In this document: positions 22,252-60,902 of the stretch, in pieces
How positions within the stretch are numbered: the stretch's first letter is position 1
Layout of the letters: each line of letters begins with the position of its first letter
Assembly: GCF_000813745.1 (NCBI RefSeq)
Contig: NZ_JWLC01000024.1
Span: 1 to 64,000 of the forward strand
Direction: 5' to 3'
Length of the DNA stretch: 64,000 nt
From: Leisingera sp. ANG-M1
GTDB taxonomy: Bacteria > Pseudomonadota > Alphaproteobacteria > Rhodobacterales > Rhodobacteraceae
The notes under the pieces: model-generated
The model's input: only the letters and a program-made list of their open reading frames with translations
Databases searched by the model: none
Told to the model about the DNA's origin: nothing
Program-made: the position numbers and the translations under genes

Positions 22252-23256
22252 ATGAAGACCATCACAAAAAAACTGGCCCTTGCGATCGGCCTTGCCGCTG
22301 GCACGCTGGCTCAGGCCGATGAGGTCAAAGAAGTCACCATCAAACAGATCCGGGAAGCCGCAGCGGATGCCTGCGCCGGCGGCCAAACCTACCAGGTGGC
22401 CTACAGCCACTCGGTTTCAGAGGTTGCAATCGTCAAGCAGGTGCGCCGGTTTGCCGATGAACGCGCCGCTCAGCTGGGGTGCGTGACTGTCCTGCATGAC
22501 AACACACAGGCCAATAATCTGGAGCAGCAGATCAATGCGATCCAGGGCTGGATCACTCTTGGCGTTGACGCCATCGTTGTTCTGCCGATTGAGCCCACAG
22601 CTTTGCAGCCGCTGCAGCGCCAGGCCCAGGCGCAGGGGATCAGGTGGCTGACATACTTGGGCAAAATGGACGGGTCGGATGGCTTTGTCGGCTTTGATCA
22701 CGCCCAGTCCGGCCAGATCGTGGCTCAGGCAGCCGTTGATTGGGCCAAGGAAAACGGTGTGACCGATGCCAAGGCGCTTGTGACCACGCTGACTCCGCTG
22801 CCCTCGCTTGCCCCGCGCTGGACCGAGGTGATCCGGATCTTCTCGGAAAATGGTATTGAGGTGGTGTCGGAACAGGACGCGGCTGATCAGACCAACGGCC
22901 TGCGGGTTGCGGAAACGGTCCTGCAGCAGCATCCGGATCTGGATATCATCATCGGCATGGCAGATGACGCGGCGGTTGGCGCCATGCGGGCGATCAAACT
23001 GGCAGATGCAGATGCGGACGCGATGTTTGTCGGCGGCCAGGACGGCTCTCTGGAAGGGCTGAGTGCAGTGAACGAGGGCGGGGCTTACCGGGCCTCCGCG
23101 GCGATCCTGATCAATGAACTGGGCGCCAATATCGTTGATCTAGCACTGAATGCCGTGCGCGAGAAAGGGCCGAGCTTTGCCTACACGCCCACTGTGCTGG
23201 CCAGCAAGGCCGACCAGCCGCTGCTGAACTTCCTTCTTTCGAATTACGAAAACTGA
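22252..23256 (+). CDS. Periplasmic sugar-type (RbsB-like) substrate-binding protein
   Basis: 334 residues with a short signal peptide ending near 'LAQA-DE'. 'YQVAYSHSVSEVAIVKQVRR', 'NTQANNLEQQINAIQGWITL' and 'GVDAIVVLPIEPTALQPLQR' are the Peripla_BP_4 (ribose-type) fold. The first binding protein of a full Rbs-type cassette. The ligand may be a sugar, nucleoside or polyol, and the domain family also serves non-sugar ligands. Its stop overlaps a possible ATG of the ATPase gene. Confidence 0.88.
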   Translation: MKTITKKLALAIGLAAGTLAQADEVKEVTIKQIREAAADACAGGQTYQVAYSHSVSEVAIVKQVRRFADERAAQLGCVTVLHDNTQANNLEQQINAIQGWITLGVDAIVVLPIEPTALQPLQRQAQAQGIRWLTYLGKMDGSDGFVGFDHAQSGQIVAQAAVDWAKENGVTDAKALVTTLTPLPSLAPRWTEVIRIFSENGIEVVSEQDAADQTNGLRVAETVLQQHPDLDIIIGMADDAAVGAMRAIKLADADADAMFVGGQDGSLEGLSAVNEGGAYRASAAILINELGANIVDLALNAVREKGPSFAYTPTVLASKADQPLLNFLLSNYEN

Positions 23257-23282
23257 TGCGTGGAACCGGCAAGGAGGCGGAA

Positions 23283-24836
23283 ATGCGTCTTGAAGTGAAG
23301 GATCTTCGCAAATCCTATGGCTCTGTTGCCGTACTCAAAGGGGTGGACCTGCAGGTCGAGGCCGGAAAAGTTCTGGCATTCCTGGGAGCAAATGGCGCAG
23401 GCAAATCCACTCTGCTGAACTGCATCAGCGGAGCGCAGGACGCGGACAAGGGCGATATTCTTGCGGGTGGAGCTTCCTTGCGCGATGCCACGCCGCGGCA
23501 GGTGCAGAACCTGGGCGTGGCGATCATCTATCAGCACTTTCAGGTCTTTGAAGGGCTGACCGTTGCCGAGAACATCTTTCTTGGACATGAAATCAAGCGC
23601 GGCGGCAGGGTGGACCGCCGCGCCCAGAACGGCAAGGCGCGGGAGCTGCTTGCGCGGCTTGGGGTTTCAGGTATCAATCCGCGGGCCGAACTTGGAACGC
23701 TGGGCGTCGGCGAGCGCAAGGTGGTGGAAATCGCGCGTGCGCTGCGGCTGAAACCCAGGTTTCTCATTCTTGATGAGCCGACGGCCTCGCTCTCTGACAA
23801 GGAGGCCAAGGCGCTGCATGCGGTGATCCGGCAGGCGGTTGCCAAGGACGGGATCGGAGTCATCTACGTCACGCATTTTCTGGATGAAATCCACAAGGTC
23901 GCGGATCAGGTCACCATCCTGCGGGACGGGCGTATCCTTTGGACACGGCCGGTGGAGGAGGTGACCATCGCCGACATGACGGATGCAATTTCCCCGGATG
24001 CGCTTTTGAAGGGGATAGAAAGGCCTGGCTTCACGCCCAGTGGTCCCGCTGTCTTGAAGATGGATGGTTTGAGCACCGGATTTGTCGGGCCTGTCAGCGC
24101 CGAACTGCGGGCAGGCGAGGTTCTTGGCATCTACGGGCTGATGGGGGCGGGCAGAACCGAACTGCTGGAATGCCTGTCAGGTGCTGCGCCGAAATCCAGC
24201 GGCCGGATAGAGCTCGACGGGCAGGATGTCAGCTTTGCTGCGCCGCGCGAGGCGTTGTCGCAGGGTGTCGCCCTGGTGGCCAGCGACCGCAAGGAGCAGA
24301 GCCTGTTTGCCAGTTTTGCTGCTGTCGAAAACCTGCTTGTGCCGCACTTCGGACGCTCGCCGATGCCGCGGCTGCTGCGCGATTTCCGCCGCGAAGGCCG
24401 GGAGTTCGAACGCGCCGCCCGCCGGCTGAACATCCAGCCGCCCAACCCGCGACTGCAGGGGCAACGGTTCAGCGGCGGCAATGCGCAGAAGATCATGGTG
24501 GGCCGCTGGCTGGTCGAAGGGACAGGGCTGAAGCTGCTGCTGCTGGATGAGCCGACCCAGGGCGTCGACATTGGCGCCCGGCACGAGCTCTACGAGGCCC
24601 TGGCGGATGTGAAGCGCAAGGGCACGGCAGTCGCGGTGGCCTCGTCGGACGCGACCGAGATCTGTTTGCTGGCCGACAAGGTGCTGGTGCTGGGCCGCGG
24701 CAGGCAAGTGGCCCTGATCGACAACCCGCAGGATGAAGAAATGCTGATCGAGCTGGCTCACCGCGCAGAGCACAGCGCGCAACAGGATCCAGCGGCTGCA
24801 GAGCCTGAAGCAAAGGAAATGGAATTGACGCAATGA
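23283..24836 (+). CDS. Sugar-type ABC ATPase with two nucleotide-binding domains (RbsA/MglA-like)
   Basis: 517 residues from ATG 23283, preceded by AAGGAGGCGG; an upstream ATG at 23256 would overlap the previous stop but lacks a ribosome site. Domain 1 has Walker A 'GANGAGKST', a signature 'LGVGERKVVEIARAL' and Walker B 'FLILDEPTASL'. Domain 2 has the degenerate P-loop 'GLMGAGRTE' and the signature 'FSGGNAQKIMVGRWL', the normal asymmetry of this family. It energises the Rbs-type permease. Four-base overlap with the permease gene. Confidence 0.9.
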   Translation: MRLEVKDLRKSYGSVAVLKGVDLQVEAGKVLAFLGANGAGKSTLLNCISGAQDADKGDILAGGASLRDATPRQVQNLGVAIIYQHFQVFEGLTVAENIFLGHEIKRGGRVDRRAQNGKARELLARLGVSGINPRAELGTLGVGERKVVEIARALRLKPRFLILDEPTASLSDKEAKALHAVIRQAVAKDGIGVIYVTHFLDEIHKVADQVTILRDGRILWTRPVEEVTIADMTDAISPDALLKGIERPGFTPSGPAVLKMDGLSTGFVGPVSAELRAGEVLGIYGLMGAGRTELLECLSGAAPKSSGRIELDGQDVSFAAPREALSQGVALVASDRKEQSLFASFAAVENLLVPHFGRSPMPRLLRDFRREGREFERAARRLNIQPPNPRLQGQRFSGGNAQKIMVGRWLVEGTGLKLLLLDEPTQGVDIGARHELYEALADVKRKGTAVAVASSDATEICLLADKVLVLGRGRQVALIDNPQDEEMLIELAHRAEHSAQQDPAAAEPEAKEMELTQ

Positions 24837-25816
24837 CAGATACCGGACTGACACGGGCCGCGGCGGCGGCTGACGAAAAAGCCGAACGCGACTGGTTCGA
24901 GATCGCGGTGGCGGCCGCATTGCCGGCAGCCATCGCCCTGCTGGCGCTGTTCTTCTATGTAAAAGCGCCGGTCTTCATGACCGCCAACAACTGGATCGCG
25001 ATCTCGGTGCAAGTGTCAGCGCTGATGACGATTTCCATTCCTTTCGCCATGCTGCTGATGGCTGGCAAGATCGACCTGTCTGTCGGCTCCACCCTGGCGC
25101 TTTGCGGTGTTGTTGCCGGGCTCAGCTTTGAACCTTTGGGGATTACAGGCGCGGTGCTGCTCACCTTGGCTGTTGGAACAGGCGCGGGGCTGATCAATGG
25201 GGTGCTTGTGTCGTCAATCGGGATGTCCCCGATCATTGTGACCTTGGGCACGCTGACCCTCATCCGCGGGCTGGCCCAATGGCTGGCGCCGAACCCGATC
25301 TTCGGTTTTCCGGAGGAATTCCTGGTCATCGGCTACGAGCGGATCTTCGGCCTTCCGGTCCTGACCTGGATCATGCTTGCAGTCATCGCTCTTGGGGCGG
25401 CGGTCATGGCCCTGCTGCCTATCGGCCCGCAGATTGTGGCGCTGGGGGTGAACCGGCGGGCGGCTTTCCTGGTCGGCCTCAGGGTCAAGGCCATTGGCGT
25501 GGGTCTGTATGCAGCCACTGGCTTCTTTGTGGCGGTTGCGGCACTGATGAGCATTTCGCGGATCAACTCGGCCCCCGCCGGCACCCTGGGCATCGGGGTT
25601 GAGCTTAGTGTTCTGACGGCGGTTCTGCTGGGCGGTATCCCTTTTACCGGCGGCAAGGGCTCGGTCCTGCGGGTCGTGCTCGGTGTCTGGCTGCTGGGGA
25701 TGCTGTCGAACGGGCTGATTCTGATGAATGTGCCAACTGAATTGAGTCTCATGACAACTGGTATCGTTTTGGTTGTGGCGGCCGGTTTGGACGTATTGCG
25801 TGCGAGGCGCGGCTAA
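24833..25816 (+). CDS. Sugar-type ABC permease (RbsC-like)
   Basis: 327 residues with eight to ten membrane segments. 'MLLMAGKIDLSVGSTLALCG' and 'TLGTLTLIRGLAQWL' are the BPD_transp_2 family marks, and 'ELSVLTAVLLGGIPFTGGKG' is the C-terminal EAA-like loop. It probably works as a homodimer with the two-domain ATPase. It is the last gene of the cassette, followed by a hairpin at 25832. Confidence 0.9.
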   Translation: MTDTGLTRAAAAADEKAERDWFEIAVAAALPAAIALLALFFYVKAPVFMTANNWIAISVQVSALMTISIPFAMLLMAGKIDLSVGSTLALCGVVAGLSFEPLGITGAVLLTLAVGTGAGLINGVLVSSIGMSPIIVTLGTLTLIRGLAQWLAPNPIFGFPEEFLVIGYERIFGLPVLTWIMLAVIALGAAVMALLPIGPQIVALGVNRRAAFLVGLRVKAIGVGLYAATGFFVAVAALMSISRINSAPAGTLGIGVELSVLTAVLLGGIPFTGGKGSVLRVVLGVWLLGMLSNGLILMNVPTELSLMTTGIVLVVAAGLDVLRARRG

Positions 25817-26980: not shown

Positions 26981-28093
26981 ATGGCCAAGAATAATCTCAC
27001 ACGGCGGGGTCTTCTAAAGACAAGTGCCATGGCAGCCGGTGCGCTGGCGATACCAATGATCGCACGGGCGCAATCCGTTACCGAAATGACGATGCTGGCC
27101 TGGTACGGCCAGGCGGAACCGGATGCGGTTGCCGAATTCGAAGAGCTGCACAACGTCAAAATCACCCCGAAGTATTATGTCGGCGGCGAACAGATGCTGG
27201 CCCTTCTGGCGCAGTCCCCGGCGGGGACTTATGATCTGATCCACGCGGATGCCGAATATGTGCAGCAGCTGGTCCGTGCCAATTTTGTCGAGAAGCTGGA
27301 TCCGGCCGACTACCCGTTTGATGACTTCTATCCGGAGTTCCACAAGTTCCCGGGCCACTGGCATGATGACGAACTCTATGCGGTGATCAGCCGCTTCGGC
27401 TTCCTGGGGATCTCCCACAATCTGGACGCGGTTTCGGTCAAAGAGGCGATGTCCTATGACATGCTGTGGGACGCCAAGCACCACGACAAGGTCGGCCATT
27501 TCGACTGGCACCTGCCCAATCTCGGCGTGCTGAGCCTGCGCAACGGCAACGCGCAGCCCTATGACATCAGCGGCGGCGCATGGGACAAGCTGCAGGAAAC
27601 CACATTGAGTCTGAAGCCGCAGGTGCGTGGTTTCTACGACTATGGCGGCGTTCTGTCTTCGCTGAAATCCGGGGAAGTCACCGTGATGCCGGGGATCGGC
27701 GAGTGGATTACCGGCGTGCTGCGCCGCGATGGCGCCAATGTCACCACCACTATCCCGGAGCAGGGCGGCATCCAGTTCACTGAAAGCTTCTCGATCGGAC
27801 GCGGATCACGCAAGGCAGAGCTGGCGCGCAAGTTCATCCAGCACGCCTCCAGCCCTGCCGGACAGTACAACCTGGCCAATCTGAACGTGTTCCCCGCGAT
27901 TATCCCGTCGCAAGCCGGCTGGGAACGGATGATTGCCGAGAAGCCTGAAGATGCCCGCCATCTGGGAATGTTTAAGGGTGACGGCAACGCCATCGACCTG
28001 ATCCGCAAGGGCCGCATCCACATCCGCCAGCTGCCGGTGCAGCAGGATCTGGGTGACTGGAACGACTTCTGGTCCGCCTACAAGAGCGCCTGA
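26981..28093 (+). CDS. Tat-exported substrate-binding protein of a Pot-type ABC importer
   Basis: 370 residues. The N-terminus 'NLTRRGLLKTSAMAAGAL' with a twin-arginine motif and A-R-A cleavage site indicates Tat export. 'YYVGGEQMLALLAQSPAGTY' and 'ADAEYVQQLVRANFVEKLDP' fit the PotD/SBP_bac_8 family. It starts a four-gene polyamine-type cassette; such systems import polyamines, opines or other cations. The ligand is undetermined. It follows the LysR gene by 165 bp. Confidence 0.87.
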   Translation: MAKNNLTRRGLLKTSAMAAGALAIPMIARAQSVTEMTMLAWYGQAEPDAVAEFEELHNVKITPKYYVGGEQMLALLAQSPAGTYDLIHADAEYVQQLVRANFVEKLDPADYPFDDFYPEFHKFPGHWHDDELYAVISRFGFLGISHNLDAVSVKEAMSYDMLWDAKHHDKVGHFDWHLPNLGVLSLRNGNAQPYDISGGAWDKLQETTLSLKPQVRGFYDYGGVLSSLKSGEVTVMPGIGEWITGVLRRDGANVTTTIPEQGGIQFTESFSIGRGSRKAELARKFIQHASSPAGQYNLANLNVFPAIIPSQAGWERMIAEKPEDARHLGMFKGDGNAIDLIRKGRIHIRQLPVQQDLGDWNDFWSAYKSA

Positions 28094-28185
28094 TCTCCCC
28101 TCTCAGGTGCTTTTGGTCCCGCTGCCGGGCTCCGATTGGCAGCGGGACCTCTCACGACCCTTCCCAGAGCCGAAGGACACATACC

Positions 28186-29046
28186 ATGACTTCTCTCCTA
28201 CAAGCCCGGCGCCTGTCCCGGGCCGCCTATGGCGCCATGTGGAGCCTGCCGCTGCCGGTCTGGCTGGCGGGGTTCTTTCTGGGGCCGATGGTCCTGCTGA
28301 TCTGGCTCAGCTTCTGGGATGTGAAGAACTTTCTGCTGACGCCGGATTTCCAGCTGGAGAACTGGCAGAAGATCCTGACCGCCGGGTATTTCTGGTCTGC
28401 CTATGCGCGTACCGCGGCAATCGCCGCCAGCGCCGCGGCGCTGGCTACGCTGGTAGCGCTGCCCTGCGCGCTGGCCATCAGTTTCTTTTTAAGCCCGCGC
28501 GCCCGGATGGTGCTACTGGGCCTGTTTGTGGTGCCCTTCTTCACCTCCTACCTGGTGCGTATCTACTCCTGGCAGATCTATCTGACCGAAAACGGCATCG
28601 TGATGAAGCTGATGGCGGCCATCGGCATTGAGACCGGAAGCCTGCTGAACACACCGCTGGCGCTGATGATCGGGCTGGTCACCCTGACGCTGCCGCTGGT
28701 GATCGTGATCCAATCGATCTCGCTCCTGTCGCTGGACCGGACCCTGATTGATGCGGCCTACAACCTTGGCTGCGGCCCGCGCCGGGTGCTGTTTGCCACG
28801 GTGCTGCCGGCTGCCCGGCCTGGGATCGTGCTGGGCGCCCTGTTTGCCTTCATCTTCAGCTTCGGGGATTTCGTGACGGCAACCTACCTGGGCGGCGGCA
28901 AGTTCACGACCCTGTCCATCCTGATCGCTGACACCGTGAAATCCGGCCAGCAATGGCCCCGCGCCGCCGTCGTCGCCCTAATGATGATCGCGACGCTGCT
29001 GCTCACCGCGCTGGCCTCGATCGCCTATGCCTACCGGAGGACCTGA
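28186..29046 (+). CDS. Pot-type ABC permease 1 (PotB-like)
   Basis: 286 residues with six predicted membrane helices. 'FFTSYLVRIYSWQIYLTENG' and the EAA loop 'DAAYNLGCGPRRVLFATVLP' identify the PotB branch. It forms the inner-membrane channel with the next gene product. Starts 92 bp after the binding-protein gene and ends three bases before the second permease gene. Confidence 0.9.
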   Translation: MTSLLQARRLSRAAYGAMWSLPLPVWLAGFFLGPMVLLIWLSFWDVKNFLLTPDFQLENWQKILTAGYFWSAYARTAAIAASAAALATLVALPCALAISFFLSPRARMVLLGLFVVPFFTSYLVRIYSWQIYLTENGIVMKLMAAIGIETGSLLNTPLALMIGLVTLTLPLVIVIQSISLLSLDRTLIDAAYNLGCGPRRVLFATVLPAARPGIVLGALFAFIFSFGDFVTATYLGGGKFTTLSILIADTVKSGQQWPRAAVVALMMIATLLLTALASIAYAYRRT

Positions 29047-29049
29047 CCC

Positions 29050-29847
29050 ATGCGTGTCACCCGCACCACCCGCCGTCTGACCCTTGCCTTCACCGGCCTG
29101 GCCCTCGTGTTCCTCTATGCGCCGATCCTGACAAACTTTGTGTTCTCGCTGAACTCCGACCGGTTCCCGACCATTCCTCTCGGCGGCTTCACGCTGGAAT
29201 GGTACCGGCTGATCCTGGCGGATGCGCTGGTGATCGATGCCTTCAAGAACACCATCAAAATCGCGCTGATCGTGGCGCCAGTGGCCACCCTGATGGGCTT
29301 TGCTGCGGCTTATGCCGACTACCGGTTCAACTTCCTTGGCAAAAAGCTGGTGCTGGTCTTTGCGCTGATGCCGCCGCTGATCCCGCTGGTGGTGATTGGC
29401 CTGGCGATGCTGGCCTATCTGTCCCGCATCGGCCTGTCCGGCACGCTGCCCGCCATCATCGTCAGCCACATCGTGCTGACCTCTCCCTTTGCGATGGCGA
29501 TCATCCGGTTGCGGTTTTCGCAGATCGACGGCGACCTCGAATTCGCGGCGCAGAACCTGGGCGCGTCCAATTGGCGTGCGTTCCGGGCGGTGATCATCCC
29601 GTCGACCAAAACCTCGGTGCTGGCTGCCTTCCTTTTGTGCATGGCGGTGAGCTTCGATGAATACGCGGTCACCTGGTTTGTCGGCGGGCTGGAGGAAACG
29701 TCCTCGGTACGGATCCTCAGCTTCCTGCAATCCGCCGTCAGCCCACGCATCAATGCCATCGGCTCCATCACATTCGTGACCTCAATCTCCCTGATCCTGG
29801 GCGCCCAGTTCCTGGTGCTGCGCCGCCTGACGAAGGACGCAAAATGA
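29050..29847 (+). CDS. Pot-type ABC permease 2 (PotC-like)
   Basis: 265 residues with six membrane helices. The EAA loop is 'FAAQNLGASNWRAFRAVIIP', with 'SFDEYAVTWFVGG' near the end as in PotC. Pairs with the preceding permease. The stop overlaps the ATPase ATG by four bases. Confidence 0.9.
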   Translation: MRVTRTTRRLTLAFTGLALVFLYAPILTNFVFSLNSDRFPTIPLGGFTLEWYRLILADALVIDAFKNTIKIALIVAPVATLMGFAAAYADYRFNFLGKKLVLVFALMPPLIPLVVIGLAMLAYLSRIGLSGTLPAIIVSHIVLTSPFAMAIIRLRFSQIDGDLEFAAQNLGASNWRAFRAVIIPSTKTSVLAAFLLCMAVSFDEYAVTWFVGGLEETSSVRILSFLQSAVSPRINAIGSITFVTSISLILGAQFLVLRRLTKDAK

Positions 29848-30992
29848 ACTCTCTCTCCCCCCTTCAACCCGCGCGTGACGCAGCGCCGCAGCCGCAGGAG
29901 CGTGCCATGAGCCAAGCCCATATCTCGCTGAAAAACCTCCGCAAGACCTATGGTCCGGCGGTGGCGGTGGAAAACCTCAACCTGGATATCGAAGAAGGGA
30001 AATTCATCGCCATCATGGGCCCTTCGGGCTGCGGCAAATCTACCATGCTGCGGATGCTGGCCGGGCTGGAAGAGGCCAGCGGCGGTGACATCCTGCACCA
30101 GGGACGGCGGATCAACGACCTGCCGATCTGGGAGCGCGAAATGCCGATGGTCTGGCAATCCCTGGCGCTGTTCCCCTTCCTAACGGTGCGCGAAAACGTC
30201 GAATTCGGCCTGCGGATGAACGGCGTGGGCGCGGCGGAACGCAAGCACCGGGCACAGGTCTGGCTGAAGAAACTGGGCCTGGGCGAATATGCAGACCGCG
30301 GCATCGACCAGCTGTCCGGCGGCCAGCGGCAGCGGGTTGCCCTGGCGCGCTGCCTGGTTACTGAACCCTCGGTGCTGCTGCTGGATGAACCGCTGTCGGC
30401 CCTGGACGCGCATCTGTCGGTGCAAATGCAGGGCGAGCTGAAACGGCTCCAGCGCGAGCTGGGCATCACCTTCATCTATGTCACCCACAGCCATTCCGAG
30501 GCGTTCTCGATGGCGGACACCGTGGTGATCATGAACAAGGGCCGGATCGAGCAGGCCGGCAGCCCGGAAGACATCTATCTGCGCCCGGCGACGCCCTTTG
30601 TGGCGGAGTTCCTGGGTGGGTCGTCAATTTTCGGCTGCACCGTGCGGACGCGCAAAAACGGCGAGCTGGTGCTGGAGAGCGCCGATGGCACCTTCAAATG
30701 CGACGCGGCCCAAAGCTCCGGCCTTACGCCGGGGCAGAACGTCAGCCTGGTTGTCCGGGCGGATCAGATCTCCATCACCCCGGCGGCCGGCTGGGCAGAC
30801 AACGAAGTCTCCTGCCGCGTCATCGGCGAGGAGTTTGTCGGTGCGCTGGTCAATCTCCGCCTGGAAACCGGCGCGGGCACTCAGATCACGGTTCAGCTGC
30901 AGCAGCGCGACATGCAGAGCCTTGATCTTGAGACCGGGGCAGGGGTGACCGCCAGCTGGCACCCGGAAGACGGCCACATCATTGCAGAATAA
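29844..30992 (+). CDS. Pot-type ABC ATPase (PotA-like)
   Basis: 382 residues if the overlapping ATG at 29844 is used; ATG 29907 ('MSQAHISLKNLRKTYG') has a GGAG site and gives 361 residues, the more usual PotA start. Walker A 'GPSGCGKST', Q-loop 'MVWQSLALFPFLTV', signature 'LSGGQRQRVALARCL', Walker B 'VLLLDEPLSALD' and the H-loop 'YVTHSHSEA' are all intact. A TOBE domain occupies the last 100 residues. It powers the Pot-type importer and ends 17 bp before the SGNH hydrolase gene. Confidence 0.92.
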   Translation: MNSLSPLQPARDAAPQPQERAMSQAHISLKNLRKTYGPAVAVENLNLDIEEGKFIAIMGPSGCGKSTMLRMLAGLEEASGGDILHQGRRINDLPIWEREMPMVWQSLALFPFLTVRENVEFGLRMNGVGAAERKHRAQVWLKKLGLGEYADRGIDQLSGGQRQRVALARCLVTEPSVLLLDEPLSALDAHLSVQMQGELKRLQRELGITFIYVTHSHSEAFSMADTVVIMNKGRIEQAGSPEDIYLRPATPFVAEFLGGSSIFGCTVRTRKNGELVLESADGTFKCDAAQSSGLTPGQNVSLVVRADQISITPAAGWADNEVSCRVIGEEFVGALVNLRLETGAGTQITVQLQQRDMQSLDLETGAGVTASWHPEDGHIIAE

Positions 30993-39047: not shown

Positions 39048-41189
39048 TCAAGCAACCCGGAGTTCCTGTTTTTGCGCCCAGACTATGAAATCCTCGACGC
39101 TGAGAGGACGGGCGAATGCGAACCCCTGCAGTGTATCAGCGCCGACCTCTGCAGCTGCCTCTGCCTCGCCAAAGGTCTCAACTCCTTCCACGATCGTGCT
39201 GACAGAAACATGGTTGGCCATGTCTACTATTCCGCGAAGAAGATCCCTGCGCTGGGTGTCTTTGTCGATCCCGGTTACAAACATTCTGTCGATTTTCAAG
39301 CGGTCGGGTTTCAGGGCCAGAACAGATGCAAAACTGGCGTGGCCAGTGCCAAAATCGTCGACTTCGATTTTGATGCCCAGGTCTTTGAGGGCTGCTATCG
39401 TCAATTCCAGCTCCCCTGTCACGCTGTCCAGAAATGCCGTTTCGAGAACTTCAAACGCCAGCCCGGTCTCAGGAAGGTCGGGGCGGTTGCGGAGTTCTTC
39501 AAGCAAGTTCGGCGAGGTCAGGCGGCGGGCTGAAACATTCACCGAAACCTGCGGAATATAGCCAAGCTCCGCCTCAATCGTTTTGCGGGCGTCAAGAGCC
39601 AGGTCCAGCACCCTGCGGTCCAGGTCTGCCTGCAGTTTCAGCTCTTCAGCGATCTCGACAAATACCGCAGGCGATTGACGGCCTCTTTCTGGATGGTCCC
39701 AGCGGGCCAGCACTTCAATACCCTGCAGGGCATAGCTTCTGGCGCAAACCTGGGGCTGCACTTCAATGGTGATCTCATCGCGCTCAAGCGCGGTTTTAAA
39801 GTCGTTAATGAGCCTGAGCTTGGCGTCGTGGGCCGCGCCGAGCGTGGCACTGAAGGCAACCGCCTGATTGCGGCCTCTGTGTTTTGCCTCATACAGGGCG
39901 AGATCAGCGCGTTTCAACGCATTCAGCAAAGGTTCGCCCGGCGCCAGCAAAGCCAGGCCAATCGAGGCGCCGACACTCAGGTCGATGCCTTTGTACTCCG
40001 TGGGGCAAAGCAATTCGTCCAGAAGGTGATCGCAATACCATTGAGCATGCGTTTCACTGCCATCGAAATCGAGGATCAGGACGAATTCGTCGCCGCCGAT
40101 CCGAAAGGCAAAATCACGGTCCCCCTTGATCCGGTTTCTCAGCCGCTGGCCGCAGGCTGTCAGAACCGCATCCCCGGCAGCATGGCCATAGGTGTCGTTG
40201 ACGTCCTTGAAACGGTCCAAATCGATTGCAAGCAGCAATGTCCCGCAAGGATCCGGCCGGCTGTCACCCGCTGCCTCGGTCAGTTCCAAGGACAGTTCTT
40301 CAAGCAGTGTCCGGTTGCCAAGCCCTGTCAGAGTGTCGTGGCGGGCGGCCTGGGCGGTGGCTGCTTGGGCATCGCGCACTGCGTCCAAAGCGTCTCTGGT
40401 ACGCCGCTCAGCTTCCAGTGCTTGGCTGGCAGCCTCCTGCGCCTTGCGGTTGCTCTGCTCAAGGCGCCTGGCCTTGTCGGCAACCTCGTCAAAGGCAGAA
40501 ATCAGCCGGTTCTGCATCTCGGCAAACTCGCGCCCAAGCAGGCCGAATTCATCCGCCCGCTGCCAGGCGGCGGCGCTGAGAGGACGTTCCAGGGTTGCCT
40601 CAGCCACATCCCGGGTGAGCTCTTTCAAGGGTTTCAAGGCGGCGCTGCGGAAACCCAGCCACAGCAGCGGGACGCCGAGTATCAGCAGTCCGACCGTCGT
40701 CCAGACCGAGGTTTTGAACACGCGGGCGGCTTCGACACGGTTGGCTTGCGAGTTTTCGACCAGGCGGTCGGCCAGTTCGGTCATTTGCTGAAGCTTGGCG
40801 ATCAGCCGGCCGATTTGGATTCGGCGCAGCTGCGGCGAGGCGTTCTTATTGTCAAAGCCGATTGCGCCAAAAGCCTGGGACAGCTCTGTTGTGATCATTT
40901 CCAGCTGTATCGCGTCCGCTTCCTTGTCCGCGATCGGACCGGCAAGCCTGTCCCGAACCCTTTGCGCTTCGTTGGTCCATTGCTGCTGGATCCGCTTCGA
41001 AGGGCGCTGCAAGGCCTCCATTGCCAGGGCCCCAAAGGCCGTGACATGGCTTTTGATCGCATTTGCCCGGTCATAGTTCTTATGGGCTGCTGTCTGCTTC
41101 AGGTCTCCCCACAGCAGAAGGCCGATGACGGAAGTCAGCAGCAGCCCGCTCAGGACCGCAACAAAGCCGGACTTCTCGACGAGGCGCAT
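39048..41189 (-). CDS. Membrane-bound GGDEF-EAL protein (c-di-GMP cyclase/phosphodiesterase)
   Basis: 713 residues. A transmembrane helix at about 8-27, a periplasmic helical domain at 28-158, a second helix at 161-181, a HAMP linker (182-235) and a coiled-coil (240-280) lead to GGDEF (285-445, motif GGDEF at 365-369) and EAL (455-705). The inhibitory RxxD site before GGDEF reads GDRD, so product inhibition is probably absent. The EAL motif reads EVL (492-494); NVSARR, DDFGTG (611-616), KID and VEGVET are present, so phosphodiesterase activity is likely. It begins one base after the stop of a periplasmic binding protein gene, which suggests the binding protein is its sensor partner. Confidence 0.92.
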   Translation of the reverse strand: MRLVEKSGFVAVLSGLLLTSVIGLLLWGDLKQTAAHKNYDRANAIKSHVTAFGALAMEALQRPSKRIQQQWTNEAQRVRDRLAGPIADKEADAIQLEMITTELSQAFGAIGFDNKNASPQLRRIQIGRLIAKLQQMTELADRLVENSQANRVEAARVFKTSVWTTVGLLILGVPLLWLGFRSAALKPLKELTRDVAEATLERPLSAAAWQRADEFGLLGREFAEMQNRLISAFDEVADKARRLEQSNRKAQEAASQALEAERRTRDALDAVRDAQAATAQAARHDTLTGLGNRTLLEELSLELTEAAGDSRPDPCGTLLLAIDLDRFKDVNDTYGHAAGDAVLTACGQRLRNRIKGDRDFAFRIGGDEFVLILDFDGSETHAQWYCDHLLDELLCPTEYKGIDLSVGASIGLALLAPGEPLLNALKRADLALYEAKHRGRNQAVAFSATLGAAHDAKLRLINDFKTALERDEITIEVQPQVCARSYALQGIEVLARWDHPERGRQSPAVFVEIAEELKLQADLDRRVLDLALDARKTIEAELGYIPQVSVNVSARRLTSPNLLEELRNRPDLPETGLAFEVLETAFLDSVTGELELTIAALKDLGIKIEVDDFGTGHASFASVLALKPDRLKIDRMFVTGIDKDTQRRDLLRGIVDMANHVSVSTIVEGVETFGEAEAAAEVGADTLQGFAFARPLSVEDFIVWAQKQELRVA

Positions 41190-41190
41190 G

Positions 41191-42168
41191 TCAGTTCAAG
41201 CCGATGATGCTGATCGCATCGGGATCGGCTTCCTTCAGAGCAGCAGGCGCGATCAGGTCCAGGTAGTTCGGCACTGCGCCGGACGACAGCCCCAGGTCGA
41301 TCCGGAACCAGGCCTCGTCCTCCATCAGCCGGAGCAGAGCCTGGGACAATGTCAGTTTAAGCGTGTGCTTGGGCCAAAGGTATTCCATCGTGCCGGCGTC
41401 GAGATCAAGGCGCCGTCCGACGATCTGCTTCGCAGTTTCGGGATCGGACTCGGCAAATTCTGCGGCCTCCACCAGCCGGCCGACAATGTCGCCGGCGGCG
41501 GGCTGGTTGGCGGAGATCCAGCCTCCGGCCCCGTGCAGGACGAACTCGTAATTATGCCATTCCTGGTGGGGCAGCTGAACAAATTGGTCACCCAAGGCAG
41601 CGGCCGCTTGGCGCAGGTACGGGTCCCAGACAACGCCTGCATCGATAGAACCGTCAGCGATGGCTGAAACCATTTCCAGCGGCAGCAGCGGTTGCATGGC
41701 GCCGAGTTTGACACCGCTTTCCAAAAGCACCCGGTGCAGAACGAAATGCGCAAAACTGTTCTGGACGACGCCTACCGTTTTACCCTCAAGATCAGTGTAG
41801 GCGCGGATATTCCGGTCCGCGCGGGCAAAAACGTCGATGGTGCGCGAGCGCGACAAAGAAGCCAGGATTCTTAGATCCGGACGGTCAAAGGCGACGGACA
41901 CAAAGGCGAATTCCGAGCTGGTGGCCAGGTCGAGCTTGCCACCGACCAGATCTTTCGCGGTCTTGGTGCCAGAAGTGTATTTGACGATTTCGATATCATG
42001 GGGACTGTCGCGCAGCAGCCCCATGCCATCGGCCAGCCAGACAAGCACAGCTGTCGGCGTTGCCCCCAGCCGAATGGGCTGAGCGGCGCGCAGCAGTCCC
42101 GGCGCCGACAGGGCGAGCGCGGTGCTGCCGGTGAGGGCGATTGCTTTTCTGCGGGAAAAATTCGTCAT
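41191..42168 (-). CDS. Tat-exported periplasmic binding protein (SsuA/NMT1-like), orphan
   Basis: 325 residues from ATG 42168, preceded by GGAGGTTACATC on the minus strand. The twin-arginine signal 'NFSRRKAIALTGSTALALSA' ends near 'LLRA-AQ'. 'ATPTAVLVWLADGMGLLRDS', 'GTKTAKDLVGGKLDLATSSE' and 'VGVVQNSFAHFVLHRVLLES' fit the nitrate/sulfonate/taurine binding-protein superfamily. No permease or ATPase gene is near. Instead it precedes a membrane GGDEF-EAL gene by one base, so a sensory role is more likely than transport. The ligand is unknown; sulfonate, thiamine-precursor and amine types are all possible. Confidence 0.87.
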   Translation of the reverse strand: MTNFSRRKAIALTGSTALALSAPGLLRAAQPIRLGATPTAVLVWLADGMGLLRDSPHDIEIVKYTSGTKTAKDLVGGKLDLATSSEFAFVSVAFDRPDLRILASLSRSRTIDVFARADRNIRAYTDLEGKTVGVVQNSFAHFVLHRVLLESGVKLGAMQPLLPLEMVSAIADGSIDAGVVWDPYLRQAAAALGDQFVQLPHQEWHNYEFVLHGAGGWISANQPAAGDIVGRLVEAAEFAESDPETAKQIVGRRLDLDAGTMEYLWPKHTLKLTLSQALLRLMEDEAWFRIDLGLSSGAVPNYLDLIAPAALKEADPDAISIIGLN

Positions 42169-42623
42169 GATGTAACCTCCAATCACGGGCACTGGCAGCC
42201 AAAGGCGCATAACTGCAAACAACCGGTGCGAGCATCATTAATTGGGCCCGATATAGATTCCGTAAACGCAGCTACCATCCATTAATCGAAACTGCCTGTA
42301 TGGTGTCCTGAGAGGAGTTTTTTGCGTTAATTTTTAATACTGCCCTAGGGAGTCTTTGCTGGATTAAAAGTCAGTGAAGCCAAGGCAAAATGCGCAGGCA
42401 AATTGTCCCAGTTTCCCACGCGGCCCGCACCGCTGCAGCTCGGGCCCAGGCGCGAAACATGCGGAGCAGCACAGGCCGGGCTGCCCTTCCTGTAGCCAGT
42501 CAAATATTCACTCAAACGCCCGGTATTATGTGAAAAGAGTGCTTTGCTCTCAAAAAGAGGGAATTCTTGTTTTGCGCACTCGCTGTGCGTGTGCGCGCTT
42601 CCATTTTTCAAAGGGAGAAGAAC
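42169..42623. other. Intergenic region with divergent promoters
   Basis: 455 bp between the divergent binding-protein gene and the unknown gene at 42624. The middle (about 42240-42360) is AT-rich, with TTTTTTGCGTTAATTTTTAA, and probably contains promoters. No convincing gene or clear dyad was found. Confidence 0.4.
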
Positions 42624-43292
42624 ATGGAACCCAAAAACATTCGCGCTCACATGCAGGCTATCGAGGAACGGTTCAAAGCCGAGAACCTGACACTTTATGT
42701 GTGTACAAACCCGGATGAATTGCCGGCCCTGTTGCACGAGGTGGGCAAAAAGAGCATCCACCCGATGTCGGAAGTCAGCGGCGAGGAACTGGCCGCGGGC
42801 CGCGCTTTCTGGCTGTTTCTGAAACGGGCGGACCGCTGCATCACTTGCATCTCTGCCAAGCTCGTCGACCTCGGCGGCAAGGACTTCGGGAGGTACTTCC
42901 GCGGCCTTGCGGCCTCGCGTTACGGCGGCCGCAAGGAGGTTGTGGCCAGTGTCTCGCAGCCGCTTGTCGATGAGCTGCAGGGCCGGCTGATCTATTTCGG
43001 CGGCATCGAAGTGGCGCCGGACGAACGCGGCGGGATCCGGCGGCTTGGGGATTTTGCCCAGTATGTGAAACTGCTGGCAGCGCTGCGCTGGGACTTTGAC
43101 TGGATGTACACGATCATCGCCTACAAGCATCGCCGCCTGGCTGATGATTATGGCTTCAACGGCAAGTACCGCAACGCGATACGCTGGGCGGACCCGGCGC
43201 CGGAAGGGCTGGCCAACGATCAGATGATCCTAGGCCTCAACGCGGTCCACTTCTCGCACATTGTCAGCAGTGTCGAGCCAGGTAAGCTTTGA
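42624..43292 (+). CDS. Unrecognised 222-residue protein
   Basis: Starts at ATG 42624 after AAGGGAGAAG. 'AHMQAIEERFKAENLTLYVC', 'CISAKLVDLGGKDFGRYFRG' and 'GRLIYFGGIEVAPDERGGIR' are distinctive; the last resembles the beta-bulge of GNAT acetyltransferases, but an acetyl-CoA P-loop is not clear. No signal peptide. The 3' end overlaps the convergent XRE-type gene by 63 bp, both in coding sequence. The GNAT relation is a guess. Confidence 0.7.
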   Translation: MEPKNIRAHMQAIEERFKAENLTLYVCTNPDELPALLHEVGKKSIHPMSEVSGEELAAGRAFWLFLKRADRCITCISAKLVDLGGKDFGRYFRGLAASRYGGRKEVVASVSQPLVDELQGRLIYFGGIEVAPDERGGIRRLGDFAQYVKLLAALRWDFDWMYTIIAYKHRRLADDYGFNGKYRNAIRWADPAPEGLANDQMILGLNAVHFSHIVSSVEPGKL

Positions 43293-43967
43293 GAAAACTG
43301 CAGTGACCGGCTCGCCTCTCGGGTCGGTCACCCGCATCGTCACCTTTCGGTAGCCGCCCCGCACTCTTTGCGCCTTGATGATCACATCAATCTCTTCATC
43401 CGTGACCAGATAGGGGACTTCATCAAGCATCCTGTGCGACTGCATCGCGCGCGCGATGATTTTCTCCTCAAAGGAGCCGACGATACGGTAGAAATCGCGG
43501 TTGCCGGCCAGCATCAGCCGTTCTGCAGTTGAGCTGCGCTTGCCAATCTGAATCGGATGCATGATCCGGTCAGTGGGTTTGATCGGCTCGTAAAGGTCGA
43601 TCTGGTCTTCGAACCACTCCCAGTTTTTCAGCACTCCGCCTTCCTGATGGAACCAGTCCAGGATGTGGTCGGTTGTCACGTTGAAGCCTGCGCGCGAGCA
43701 GGCGGCATGTTCGGTATTGGCGAGCTCTGCCGCCCGCCACCGGTTCAGGCTGGTTGCAGCGGCTTGTTCTTCAACGGGAAATTCAAAGAAAAACTGAATA
43801 GGGATGCGCAGGCCGGCCGACAGGCGGGCCAGCGAAGAGGCCGGTATCTCCCGGTTGTTCCGCATCTGGCTGCGCAGCGTGCCGTAGTTGAGTCCGGAAA
43901 TCGTGCAGGCAGTTTTCAACTTCACCCCTGCGATCTTGCAAGCAGCGTCAATCCGGTCAGCGATCAT
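43230..43967 (-). CDS. XRE-type regulator with PAS-like C-terminal domain
   Basis: 245 residues from ATG 43967. Residues 1-60 form a helix-turn-helix ('IDAACKIAGVKLKTACTISG', 'LNYGTLRSQMRNNREIPASS', 'LARLSAGLRIPIQFFFEFP'). Residues about 130-235 ('LMLAGNRDFYRIVGSFEEKI', 'YRKVTMRVTDPRGEPVTAVF') read like a PAS fold. A near-perfect 20-bp palindrome lies 12 bp upstream of its start, a likely autoregulatory operator. It is convergent with and overlaps the unknown gene at 42624. The ligand is unknown. Confidence 0.75.
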   Translation of the reverse strand: MIADRIDAACKIAGVKLKTACTISGLNYGTLRSQMRNNREIPASSLARLSAGLRIPIQFFFEFPVEEQAAATSLNRWRAAELANTEHAACSRAGFNVTTDHILDWFHQEGGVLKNWEWFEDQIDLYEPIKPTDRIMHPIQIGKRSSTAERLMLAGNRDFYRIVGSFEEKIIARAMQSHRMLDEVPYLVTDEEIDVIIKAQRVRGGYRKVTMRVTDPRGEPVTAVFSKLTWLDTADNVREVDRVEA

Positions 43968-43979
43968 TGGAGGCCTCGA

Positions 43980-43999
43980 AAGTTTACATATGTGAACTT
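43980..43999. promoter_or_regulatory. Palindromic operator upstream of the XRE-type gene
   Basis: AAGTTTACAT-ATGTGAACTT is an inverted repeat in which 9 of 10 pairs match. A further half-site TGTGAAG occurs at 44020-44026. It lies between the divergent XRE gene and the small gene at 44043 and is the best candidate for autoregulation. Confidence 0.6.
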
Positions 44000-44042
44000 C
44001 TAGCCAAAAGATTGACAGCTGTGAAGTAAAAGCTGACAATCA

Positions 44043-44420
44043 ATGCTTGTGCAGGGGATGCAAAAGTTAGGACGGCCATTGAAGCAGACAGACGCAAAAC
44101 TGCATTGCGCTGACGGGGATCAAAACGACCCGGGCAGCAGCGGCGGCGAGTTGGCGCTGCTTGAGAAGGCGTGCAGAATGTCTGGGCGGAGTCTCGGCTT
44201 TTGGACCAGTTTCACAGACGGTCTTGATGAGAAATCTCTGGCTTTGCTGGCCGCTAGGGCGCACATGATTTCTCCCGATATTACAGCATCTTGCGATGCA
44301 CTGCAGCGCGATCAGAGCGAAGCTGTATCGCTGTTTTCGCAAGTAGGGGACCGGGACCGCGAAGCGCTGCTGGTGGCCCTGCGGAGCCTGGTGGAGCTTC
44401 GCAAGGGGCGGCTGAATTGA
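44043..44420 (+). CDS. Small protein of unknown function
   Basis: 125 residues if ATG 44043 is used; ATG 44058 is an alternative, and neither has a strong ribosome site. The second half is helical ('DREALLVALRSLVELRKGRL') and resembles the C-terminal tails of small phage-type regulators, but no domain is recognised. Divergent from the XRE gene, with the palindrome in the shared promoter region. May not be a real gene. Confidence 0.42.
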   Translation: MLVQGMQKLGRPLKQTDAKLHCADGDQNDPGSSGGELALLEKACRMSGRSLGFWTSFTDGLDEKSLALLAARAHMISPDITASCDALQRDQSEAVSLFSQVGDRDREALLVALRSLVELRKGRLN

Positions 44421-56166: not shown

Positions 56167-57428
56167 GTCTTGATCCTTTCATACCGCCGCGCGCGGAACG
56201 GCGCGAGGTCTTCGTTCATCGGGGTTTGGCTGACGATATCAGCCACCAGCCGCCCGGTTTTCGGCGCCATCATCAGGCCATAATGGCTGTGGCCAAAGGC
56301 GGCGATCAGGTCCGGGAAGCCCTCGACCTCGCCAATGCAGGGCAGGCTGTCGGGCAGGCTGGGGCGCTGGCCGGACCAGGTGTCTATGTCGGCTGCATTC
56401 AGATCAGGCAGCAGCGCCCTGGCCAGTTCGACCAGCCCGTCGAGGCGTTTCTGATTGAGCGGCTGGTCGAGGCCTGCAAACTCGGCGGTGCCCGCCACCC
56501 GCAAGCCTTCCTCCATTGAGGAGGCCACGAATTTCATGTCCATATCCATGATCGAGTTGTTGAGCGTAACACCCGGGTTCTTGAACGACACGTGATAGCC
56601 GCGCTCCGATTCCATCGGGATCCTGATGCCCAGCGGTTTCAGCAGTTCTCCGGACCAGACACCCATCGCCAGCACCAGCTTCGGCGTCCATTCCTGGCCC
56701 GCATCGGTGGTATAGGCCCAGCCGCCGCGCTCGGCGGGCAGGATGCCCCGCACAGTTTGGGCCAGGATCTCGCCGCCCATGGATTGGAACTTCTCTGCCA
56801 GAACCGTGCAGATGCGGCCCGGAGAGGTCGCCCGCGCCTGGCCTTTGATCAGGATCGCTGCCTGGAACTCCGGCGTCAGAGCGGGTTCCAGATCGCGCAA
56901 TTCGCTGGCGCCAATCCGCTCCAACTCCGCCCCGCGCTCACGGCGCATCCGGTAGTCGGTGGAACTCAGATCCGCAGCCTCCGCATTGCGGAAGGCGTGG
57001 ACGTAATAGCTGTCCTGCACCAAGTCCTCATGCCCAGTGCCGGCCAGATGCAGCCGGTACATCTCCACGCAGTTCCGGTTCAGCGTGTCCATTGCATCGG
57101 AGATCTGCTGGATCCGCCCTTCGCGCCCTTCGGACAGAAACCGCAGCCCCCAGGGTGCGACCTTGGGCAGATAGCCGGGCTTTACCGACACCGGCCCCAG
57201 CGGGTCCAGCAGCCAGCCCGGCACCTTCTTCCACAGTCCGGGCATCGATTGCGGCACCACCGACCACGGCGAGATAATGCCGGCATTGCCGTAGGATGTC
57301 GCCTGGCCCGGCGCATCGCGGTCAATCAGCCGGACACGCAGCCCCCGCTCGGCCAGGGAAAGGGCCGAGCAGATGCCGACGATCCCGGCCCCCAGGACCG
57401 TTACGTCTGGGGTGGCCAGGCCGCTCAT
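56163..57428 (-). CDS. FAD-dependent D-amino-acid dehydrogenase (DadA-like)
   Basis: 421 residues. The FAD motif 'VTVLGAGIVGICSALSLAER' (GxGxxG) starts at residue 10, and 'ESERGYHVSFKNPGVTLNNS' and 'TWSGQRPSLPDSLPCIGEVE' are DadA family hallmarks. It oxidises a D-amino acid or similar amine, passing electrons to the respiratory chain. It overlaps both the TRAP permease gene and the racemase gene by four bases, so it is embedded in one unit. Confidence 0.85.
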   Translation of the reverse strand: MSGLATPDVTVLGAGIVGICSALSLAERGLRVRLIDRDAPGQATSYGNAGIISPWSVVPQSMPGLWKKVPGWLLDPLGPVSVKPGYLPKVAPWGLRFLSEGREGRIQQISDAMDTLNRNCVEMYRLHLAGTGHEDLVQDSYYVHAFRNAEAADLSSTDYRMRRERGAELERIGASELRDLEPALTPEFQAAILIKGQARATSPGRICTVLAEKFQSMGGEILAQTVRGILPAERGGWAYTTDAGQEWTPKLVLAMGVWSGELLKPLGIRIPMESERGYHVSFKNPGVTLNNSIMDMDMKFVASSMEEGLRVAGTAEFAGLDQPLNQKRLDGLVELARALLPDLNAADIDTWSGQRPSLPDSLPCIGEVEGFPDLIAAFGHSHYGLMMAPKTGRLVADIVSQTPMNEDLAPFRARRYERIKT

Positions 57429-59650
57429 TGAGCGGCCTCGGCCTGCAGTTTGCGCTGCTGGCCCAGCTGCTGCACCAGGGCCGGAGCCATGATCACCAGA
57501 GCCGCGATGTCCGAGCCGCCGGACGGCGCCACCAAGAGCAGGCCCCCGATGGCCATCAGCAGCCGCCAGATGCCGCTAAGCGGTGCCAGGAAATAAGCCG
57601 ACACAGCCGTGGCGATAGCAAACACGCCCAGTGCGCAAGTGCCGGTCACCTGGATGAAGCCAAGCCACGTGAAATATTCGGGCAGCACGATCAGCATCAC
57701 CGGCGCATAGACAAACACCATCGGCACCATCAGCTTGCCCAGTCCCAGGGTGAAGGCATTGAGGCCGGTGCGGAACGGGTTGGAGCCCGCAATCCCCGCC
57801 GCCGCATAAGCCGAGGCGCAGACCGGCGGGGTGATCTCGGAAATCACACCGTAGTAGAGCACGAACATATGGGTGGCGAGCGGCGGCACGCCCAGCTGGC
57901 TCAGCGCCGGCGTCGCAACCGCAACCAGCATGATGTAAAGCGCCGTGGTCGGCAGGCCGGCACCCATCAGGATACAGGCCATGGCAATCAGCACCAGCGA
58001 CAGGAACTGCTGAATCGACGGCTGGCTGAAGGCCTCGATGGTGGTCCAGTCCAGAAGCGGGGCCAGAGCCGCCGCCATATCTGCAGCACCTCCAGTGACC
58101 ATGAAGCCCAGGCGGAAACCAACGCCGGTGGTGTTGATCACACCCACCACGATACCCACGGCCGCCGAGGCTGCACCCACCGCCAGCGCATACTGCACGC
58201 CGACATGGAAGCTGTCGAACAGATCCCGGAACTTCTGCCGCTCGTTTCGGTGAAGGCAGGCCAGGATGGTCAGCGCTGCCAGCATTCCCGCCATCACGGG
58301 GCTGTAGCCTTCGCCGGAATAGGGCGAGGCCTTCCACAATATGAATCCGAGCAAGACAAAGGGGATCAGCATGGTTGCAGGCTTGTTGAAGGCGCAGAAA
58401 CCGGTGACCACACACAGGCTGAGGCCGATAAACGCCGCCATGTTCGGCGAATAGCCCGAGAACAAGACAAGCAGCAGGGCAATCAGCGGAATGATCGTGT
58501 ACCAGCCGTCTTTCCAGACTTGCAGGAACTTCGGCAGCTGATCCTTGGGATAAGCGGTCAGGCCCAGTTTCTTGGCGGTGAAATGCACGATCGAGATCAC
58601 CCCGATGTAATGCATCATCGCCGGCACAATCGCCGCAATCACGATGGTGGTGTAGGGCACCTCCAGGTATTCGGCCATCAGGAAAGACGCCGCGCCCATG
58701 ATCGGCGGCGTGATCTGCCCGCCAGCCGACGCCGCTGCCTCAACCCCGCCTGCGAAATAGCCAGGGTAGCCAAGCTTCTTCATGTTGGGGATGGTCAGCG
58801 AGCCGGTGGAAACGGTGTTGGCGATGGAAGACCCGGAAATGGTGCCGAAAAAGGCCGAGGAGACCACCGACACCTTGGCCGGGCCGCCGGTGTAACGGCC
58901 TGCCAGCAGCATGGCATTGTCGACAAAGAACTGCCCCAGCCCCATCCGCTGCGCCACCACGCCGAACAGCACAAAGTGGAACACCACGGTGGAGACCACC
59001 CACAGCGTCACGCCGAAAATGCCTTCGGACGGGAAATACATGTTGTTGACGAACTGCTGCCAGTTCACGCCCGGATGCTTGAGGATCTGCGCCGGCATAT
59101 AGGGGCCGAACAGCGCGTAGACCATGAACACCAGAATGATCAGCGGCAGCACAAAGCCTATGGTGCGCCGGGCGATCTCAAGCACCGTCAGGATCAGCAC
59201 CGAGCCGAAGAACACATCGAGGCCGGACGGGTTGCCCTGCCGCAGCGCCTGCTCGGCGATGTCGAACCCGAACATGTCAAAGCCGCGCCAGCTTACCCAG
59301 AGGAACAGCGCTGCCGCCATGCTGAGGCCGGTGAGTGCCCAGTCATAAAGGGGCACATTGCCGGGGCGCAGCGGGTTCGGCCCGCGCCATTCCAGGCTGC
59401 GCGCCGATTTGATCAGCGGGAAGCCCACAAAGATGAACAGGAACAGCCCTGCCAGGTGAATGCCCATATGCACATGGTCCACCGGTGTGCCGAACCCGGC
59501 CGTCCACAGGTGGTAAAGGGCAAAGGCGATGGAGGCCCAATAGATGACGCCGGTCAGCTTGGGTCCGTTGTCGCGCGTGTTCAGAGCGGAGTCGTACTGC
59601 TTCTCCAGCTCCTCAAGCGCTTTGTTGTCGAGATGGGTGTCCAGGGACAT
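57425..59650 (-). CDS. Fused TRAP-TAXI transporter membrane protein (DctQM)
   Basis: 741 residues from ATG 59650. The N-terminal 200 residues form the small Q-like part (four helices); the rest is the large M subunit with 'FFGTISGSSIANTVSTGSLT' and 'GGQITPPIMGAASFLMAEYL', the TRAP substrate-site motifs. The single fused polypeptide is usual for the TAXI type. It imports an organic acid using the sodium gradient. It lies 139 bp downstream of the TAXI binding-protein gene. Confidence 0.92.
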   Translation of the reverse strand: MSLDTHLDNKALEELEKQYDSALNTRDNGPKLTGVIYWASIAFALYHLWTAGFGTPVDHVHMGIHLAGLFLFIFVGFPLIKSARSLEWRGPNPLRPGNVPLYDWALTGLSMAAALFLWVSWRGFDMFGFDIAEQALRQGNPSGLDVFFGSVLILTVLEIARRTIGFVLPLIILVFMVYALFGPYMPAQILKHPGVNWQQFVNNMYFPSEGIFGVTLWVVSTVVFHFVLFGVVAQRMGLGQFFVDNAMLLAGRYTGGPAKVSVVSSAFFGTISGSSIANTVSTGSLTIPNMKKLGYPGYFAGGVEAAASAGGQITPPIMGAASFLMAEYLEVPYTTIVIAAIVPAMMHYIGVISIVHFTAKKLGLTAYPKDQLPKFLQVWKDGWYTIIPLIALLLVLFSGYSPNMAAFIGLSLCVVTGFCAFNKPATMLIPFVLLGFILWKASPYSGEGYSPVMAGMLAALTILACLHRNERQKFRDLFDSFHVGVQYALAVGAASAAVGIVVGVINTTGVGFRLGFMVTGGAADMAAALAPLLDWTTIEAFSQPSIQQFLSLVLIAMACILMGAGLPTTALYIMLVAVATPALSQLGVPPLATHMFVLYYGVISEITPPVCASAYAAAGIAGSNPFRTGLNAFTLGLGKLMVPMVFVYAPVMLIVLPEYFTWLGFIQVTGTCALGVFAIATAVSAYFLAPLSGIWRLLMAIGGLLLVAPSGGSDIAALVIMAPALVQQLGQQRKLQAEAAQ

Positions 59651-59789
59651 CGGGGTCTCCAATTCCAGGAGTTTCACCGGTGCAAACGCCGTGCATCCGC
59701 CGCAGCAGTCAGGGGGCAGCAGACAGGGGCACCGGGAGATAAAAAACGGCAGCAAGGCGCACCCTGCTGCCGCAGTTCAGGGGGAGAGA

Positions 59790-60800: not shown

Positions 60801-60902
60801 TGTCTCTTCCCTTGGTTTTCGGGCCGCAGCTTGCCTGCCGCAGCTCACTCCTCCGATCCTTGCATCATGGGAAAGGAAAAGCATAAGTACAAATTTAAAA
60901 TT

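Follow-up and report, generated by a model that had tools for sequence, protein, structure and literature searches.

A putative sensory pairing of an NMT1/SsuA-fold binding protein with a membrane GGDEF-EAL receptor in Leisingera sp. ANG-M1

Comparison with described binding protein-receptor systems

Periplasmic binding proteins can set the activity of dual GGDEF-EAL enzymes, as the cited sections of earlier reports describe for NspS-MbaA and ScrB-ScrC (PMC8967002, PMC9993111, PMC10269520). Such control is already known; what is new here is a layout of this kind in which the solute-binding protein (SBP) has the NMT1/SsuA fold. The pair was found in the genome of Leisingera sp. ANG-M1, within a stretch of 64,000 nucleotides (contig NZ_JWLC01000024.1, positions 1 to 64,000; hereafter the window). 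The gene of a membrane GGDEF-EAL receptor (P0001, 713 residues; 39048-41189, minus strand) starts one base beyond the end of the SBP gene (P0002, 325 residues; 41191-42168, minus strand), both open reading frames (ORFs) lying where a preliminary description of the sequence had put them. As that description had also stated, no ATP-binding cassette (ABC) gene stands alongside, none being recognised among the 10 flanking genes scanned (34.4-47.5 kb of the window). We consider it quite likely that the two genes form one sensory unit, in which the exported SBP would bind a small molecule, dock on the sensor domain of the receptor and shift the balance of cyclic di-GMP (c-di-GMP).

NspS-MbaA of Vibrio cholerae and Sinorhizobium meliloti resembles the window pair in that an SBP gene adjoins a GGDEF-EAL gene, the enzyme having a periplasmic domain between two membrane helices and an EVL motif (cited sections of PMC8967002 and PMC9993111). 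Pairs of this type have been recognised by genes lying no more than 20 bp apart (PMC9993111, in the section consulted); the window genes, 1 bp apart, lie within that distance and share the two-helix GGDEF and EAL layout. Membership was nonetheless ruled out, since the SBP is of another family: NspS is PotD-like and binds polyamines, whereas P0002 is of the NMT1/SsuA fold, and its matches up to E 0.1 were to NMT1, NMT1_2, Phosphonate-bd, SsuA_fam and other non-PotD models, neither PotD nor SBP_bac_8 nor any spermidine model being among the matches listed (6 families in Pfam and 9 in NCBIfam, at E <=0.1). MbaA also has SGDEF where the window receptor has GGDEF, and the nearest sensor relatives of the latter found here lie in histidine kinases, MbaA being known by description and not by sequence comparison. 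The likeness to NspS-MbaA proposed in the preliminary description therefore holds for an orphan SBP with a membrane GGDEF-EAL receptor, as judged by conserved pairing, shared sensor and swapped outputs, and gives way where kinship is concerned, the nearest kin being SBP/histidine-kinase pairs.

The scrABC operon of Vibrio parahaemolyticus encodes, in ScrA, an aminotransferase-like protein that makes the signal. Its periplasmic binding protein ScrB switches the dual GGDEF-EAL enzyme ScrC (PMC10269520, section consulted), and in this respect resembles P0002. The window pair was set apart from ScrB-ScrC on gene content and not on the ScrB sequence, as no aminotransferase-like gene stands beside it: no such Pfam match was obtained among the same 10 flanking genes, several of which had no Pfam match of any kind. 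By analogy, the window pair would work as NspS-MbaA or ScrB-ScrC do. XylFII-LytS and TorT-TorS employ SBP families other than NMT1 and differ further in their kinase output, and a match of fold alone is no proof of descent. NasS-NasT, which responds to nitrate/nitrite, is alike in that an NMT1-fold protein serves as a sensor and not for transport; it is cytoplasmic, and its target is an RNA-binding antiterminator instead of a membrane enzyme. A NasS-NasT-like pair occurs at the left end of the window, where an NMT1_2 protein overlaps an ANTAR-domain regulator (1637-2815 and 2812-3582, minus strand), with a further NMT1_2 protein at 3-1436. By analogy with NasS-NasT, this pair is likely a further case within the window of an NMT1-fold protein serving as a sensor.

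No NMT1/SsuA-type SBP acting with a GGDEF/EAL enzyme or a kinase was found among the literature matches listed (titles and abstract starts), most subscription papers being outside this coverage. A repertoire paper counts SBPs of at least 13 families as acting on receptors and does not name them in the part consulted, hence an example of an NMT1 protein acting on a kinase may already have been published. The earlier remark that no described SsuA-type example was known stands for the literature searched; NMT1-type SBPs paired with GGDEF proteins exist in other lineages too, for example in Vibrio sp. THAF191d, so that c-di-GMP control by an NMT1 fold would not be unique to the ANG-M1 genome.

Relatives of the pair and exchange of outputs

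The pair was present in 2 of the 21 genomes of the genus, its own included. In the same-genus relative (L006) it has other neighbours (cobalamin-type genes and others resembling aminomethyltransferases, as the translations suggest by eye), and the core block flanking the window pair sits on another contig; the pair is therefore an accessory unit. Two of the 295 genomes of the family, again including its own, matched the SBP at E 1e-40, the other belonging to a different genus (L005), and a scan of genome contigs returned no relatives beyond the two already found. The SBP is 86% identical in L006 and 69% in L005, where the receptor is 57% identical over residues 1-260 and the output is a hybrid histidine kinase with a receiver domain. 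Identity to this kinase sister spans the sensor, the membrane helices, the HAMP-like segment and the linker and fades past approximately residue 260; input module and output were therefore exchanged as blocks. Profile comparison with kinase members carrying an RxxxQW signature (hhalign 92%, E 8e-7; controls <1%) identifies the window sensor domain as homologous to theirs.

The conservation of the gene pair, put forward in the preliminary description as a check, extends well beyond these genomes. At E 1e-30, a profile of the three SBPs had matches in 5 of the 385 genomes of the class, counting that of ANG-M1; in all 4 others, a two-helix receptor whose output is a kinase comes after the SBP. 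With a broader profile, 47 places were retrieved in 42 of 398 phylum genomes; 38 of the 46 other neighbourhoods were receptor-linked, five were ABC-linked, two stood beside SnoaL-like genes and one was an orphan. As it recurs both in the nearest relatives and in these 38 neighbourhoods, the pairing is far beyond chance. A third profile, applied at E 1e-40, had matches in 6 of the 292 genomes of the order and in 16 of the 385 of the class (own included) and gave 14 new neighbourhoods, three of them receptor-linked, nine with an ABC-ATPase motif nearby and two unclear, from which it follows that the receptor habit fades into transporters at weaker matches. A plasmid search yielded four weak matches, three of them from Vibrio.

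Altogether, 49 pairs were collected over the Pseudomonadota, including one Vibrio record, the cassette being delimited as an SBP and, after it, a receptor whose two membrane helices enclose 130-165 residues (span searched, 100-170 residues); the receptors obtained have 132-165 residues in this position and that of the window 135. Their outputs comprise 37 kinases, 10 GGDEF-only and 2 GGDEF-EAL proteins, as assigned in phmmer comparisons to domains taken from the window, from L013 and from L014, with a Pfam check on 11 of the 49 receptors (L088, which had no phmmer match, was classed as a kinase from Pfam, and L071 was taken off the receptor list as a permease).

Because the related pairs keep SBP and sensor but differ in output, the window pair very probably senses a small molecule instead of importing it. 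Were the SBP instead to serve an ABC importer encoded elsewhere, with the receptor sensing alone and adjacency reflecting chance or co-expression only, its transport-type fold and the five ABC-linked phylum neighbourhoods would be in keeping, as would the two complete ABC operons lying 8-17 kb from the pair on one side (22252-25816, with Peripla_BP_4, and 26981-30992, with SBP_bac_8, both plus strand; the nearer ends approximately 8 kb off). Both operons, however, carry their own binding proteins, of families other than NMT1 (SBP_bac_8 being the PotD-like class), and of the nine other NMT1 matches in the genome, four lie beside an ABC-ATPase motif, four beside or near a gene resembling tripartite ATP-independent periplasmic (TRAP) transporters (identified by Pfam in one case and by the number of membrane helices in three) and one beside another receptor. 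Given also that a two-helix receptor accompanies the SBP at 49 loci, between which the output has been exchanged, we regard this explanation as improbable. A dual role, in which the SBP would act on the receptor in signalling and at the same time supply an importer encoded at another locus, was given the same low standing. Maltose- and ribose-binding proteins serve importers and chemoreceptors alike, and transport-linked SBPs lie close in the tree described below. As a class, SBPs work with transporters as well as with receptors (PMC9602780, section consulted). Against a dual role, the ABC operons near the NMT1 matches of the genome have their own SBP, a weak point, as no search of the genome for permeases lacking an SBP was made.

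In a tree of 64 SBPs, the window protein and its counterpart in the same genus were nested among kinase-linked proteins; the kinase sister branches closest to them (100), and a further kinase lies outside this group (99). The same placement was recovered in a tree of 46 of the 49 pairs (100/99, 99/98; L075, L088 and L139 omitted), in which the GGDEF-only members formed one separate clade (99/97). A single origin of the c-di-GMP output was rejected when all 12 c-di-GMP members were forced together (p-AU 5e-80); c-di-GMP outputs stand in two separate places in the trees. Replacement of a kinase output by GGDEF-EAL in the window lineage would be the simplest reading, its direction resting on parsimony with two kinase-linked neighbours, since the root was not inferred. 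By its placement, the window pair is a kinase-type SBP/receptor cassette whose output appears to have been exchanged for c-di-GMP turnover. The ABC-linked SBPs did not form one separate block in the 64-row tree (2 changes), and recruitment from transport may therefore have happened more than once, or been reversed. Not included in this tree are L090 and L091, which have SnoaL neighbours, the rows that were ABC-linked or of unclear linkage (L142, L144, L146, L147 and L149) and the SBPs of L107-L111 from the ANG-M1 genome itself; L145 was assigned to ABC by membrane-helix count alone.

We lean towards a wider reading, in which an undescribed, Pseudomonadota-wide sensor family would consist of NMT1-fold SBPs that left transport and paired with a four-helix RxxxQW receptor domain, this module being coupled to histidine kinases, to diguanylate cyclases or, in the window pair, to an enzyme with both GGDEF and EAL domains. 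The c-di-GMP wiring would have at least two origins, the window pair and its kinase sister would constitute a natural domain swap, and the ligand would probably be no sulfonate. To our knowledge, the inputs of most c-di-GMP enzymes are unknown. A census lists 27 Pfam families of the periplasmic-binding clan in GGDEF, EAL or HD-GYP proteins, of which only SBP_bac_3 had been studied in c-di-GMP networks; it concerns domains fused to enzymes, and MbaA is not mentioned in the sections consulted (PMC8846402). The window pair instead ties a separate NMT1-type binding protein to c-di-GMP turnover, and in relatives this input module is carried by kinases. Finding what one member binds would suggest ligands to try in dozens of others, and the availability of matched versions, with kinase and with c-di-GMP output, suits chimaera work on how a binding protein switches an enzyme.

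Several other arrangements of binding proteins were encountered. Elsewhere in the ANG-M1 genome, a Phosphonate-binding-type SBP overlaps a two-helix HAMP-PAS histidine kinase, making a second SBP-receptor pair (L111, 3620-6477), and an SBP_bac_3 protein is followed by a HAMP hybrid histidine kinase (L107, 4910-8390), with a GGDEF-EAL gene approximately 1 kb further on (9532-11523). In two genera of one family, an NMT1-type SBP gene shares 4 bases with an overlapping gene that contains three SnoaL-like stretches (L090, 4055-7308; L091, 4098-7195), no transporter or receptor being seen beside either. The receptor-type SBP of L049 (4458-5465) had no receptor or ABC gene alongside when the ORFs were read, and in L142 (3517-7437) a run of at least three NMT1-type SBP genes precedes a gene bearing ABC-ATPase motifs.

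Receptor architecture and the putative ligand of the binding protein

The receptor P0001 matched the Pfam families GGDEF (5e-35) and EAL (1e-55). By hydropathy, transmembrane helix 1 (residues 8-26; 41112-41168, minus strand, as are all features of the pair) and helix 2 (residues 162-180; 40650-40706) enclose a periplasmic sensor domain of 135 residues (40707-41111), close to the figure of about 130 given previously, which was modelled as a four-helix bundle. The RxxxQW signature (RIQQQW, residues 66-71; 40977-40994), present in 27 of the 49 receptors, falls at the start of helix 2 of the bundle, near its membrane-distal end in the model (orientation taken from helix order). The domain had no Pfam match at E 0.1 and its model no Foldseek match at E 0.001 or better; the VIA fold matches, a list crowded with unrelated bundles, include the four-helix sensors NarQ and PcaY, solved with ligands. 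Following helix 2, the HAMP domain of the preliminary description is retained as a HAMP-like segment (residues 185-229; 40503-40637), scoring 15.6 bits in Pfam, below the 25-bit cut-off; HAMP exceeds the cut-off in L014, L015, L016, L059, L088, L139 and L140 and is not listed for L005, L013 and L075. The GGDEF domain (39864-40346) has an intact GGDEF signature and, by eye, lacks the arginine of the inhibitory RxxD site, and the EAL domain (39105-39806) bears the enzyme motifs EVL, NVS, DDFGTG, KID, EGVE and QG.

On this architecture, the SBP would be exported, probably by the twin-arginine translocation (Tat) system, bind a small molecule in the periplasm and dock on the four-helix sensor bundle, and the resulting change would be relayed by transmembrane helix 2 and then by the HAMP-like segment and a coiled linker, shifting the balance of the c-di-GMP made by the GGDEF domain against that degraded by the EAL domain. 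In which direction the balance would move, and whether biofilm or motility would respond, are likewise matters of prediction.

The SBP matched NMT1 (1e-11) and NMT1_2 (4e-8) in Pfam, in accordance with the SsuA/NMT1 type first assigned to it. Its Tat-like signal region of approximately 28 residues (42085-42168) begins SRRKAIA, and the N-termini of the three nearest SBPs read SRRKAIA, TRRKAIA and TRRTAFS; the RR is common to these three, absent in four distant homologues compared and found in a few others (L052, L081). The SBP, earlier described as Tat-exported, is on this N-terminus probably exported by Tat with a cleavage site at the signal region, export itself being predicted.

P0002 falls in the SsuA/TauA fold and subfamily (TIGR01728; PDB 2x26, 3e4r, 6ssy), yet differs from these proteins in scoring below the curated cut-offs (90.1 bits against 163.5 for TIGR01728 and 33.8 against 304 for TIGR01729), in having no adjoining ABC gene and in not keeping the sulfonate contacts. 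In Xanthomonas citri SsuA and Escherichia coli TauA, the sulfonate is gripped by a Gln side chain, backbone NH groups and Ser/Thr (PMC3839906, PMC6906117, sections consulted). In profile alignments, SsuA Gln36/Ser141 and TauA Gln30/Thr132 correspond to T37 and F139 in P0002, and the TauA amine contacts Glu106 and Asp205 to I111 and F209; a pocket glycine and tryptophan are retained (G67, W181). These columns were read by eye at low identity to SsuA/TauA, with a profile gap near T37, and positions may shift by one or two. The pocket reads as changed and more hydrophobic. Because the Gln, Ser/Thr and Glu/Asp contacts are not conserved, the sulfonate or taurine suggested in the preliminary description was rejected as the obvious ligand, yet neighbouring residues could substitute and identity is low; the residues would argue against taurine and, to a lesser degree, against sulfonates of any kind. 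The predicted SBP structure (pLDDT 34.5) was too poor for inspection of the pocket.

The loss of the sulfonate-contacting Gln and Ser/Thr would also suit a receptor that binds its ligand directly, as the fold match to NarQ and PcaY might suggest, or an SBP that acts as a constitutive regulatory subunit with a dead pocket and keeps the receptor inactive. With G67 and W181 kept, and with the closest homologues strongly conserved throughout, as a working binding protein would be, this explanation is very improbable, and a ligand-responsive SBP remains preferred.

Neighbouring genes of the window

On the side of the pair opposite to the ABC operons, a major facilitator superfamily (MFS) gene lies 10 kb off. 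At 57425-60884 (minus strand), an NMT1_3 (TAXI-type) binding protein adjoins a DctM-family TRAP permease. Upstream of the SBP gene, a block at 42549-44416 contains two convergent, tail-overlapping ORFs (42567-43292, plus strand; 43230-44039, minus strand) of no Pfam family; it recurs, whole or in part, in six other genomes of the genus, separately from the block at 44.65-48.4 kb, and is perhaps a mobile module.
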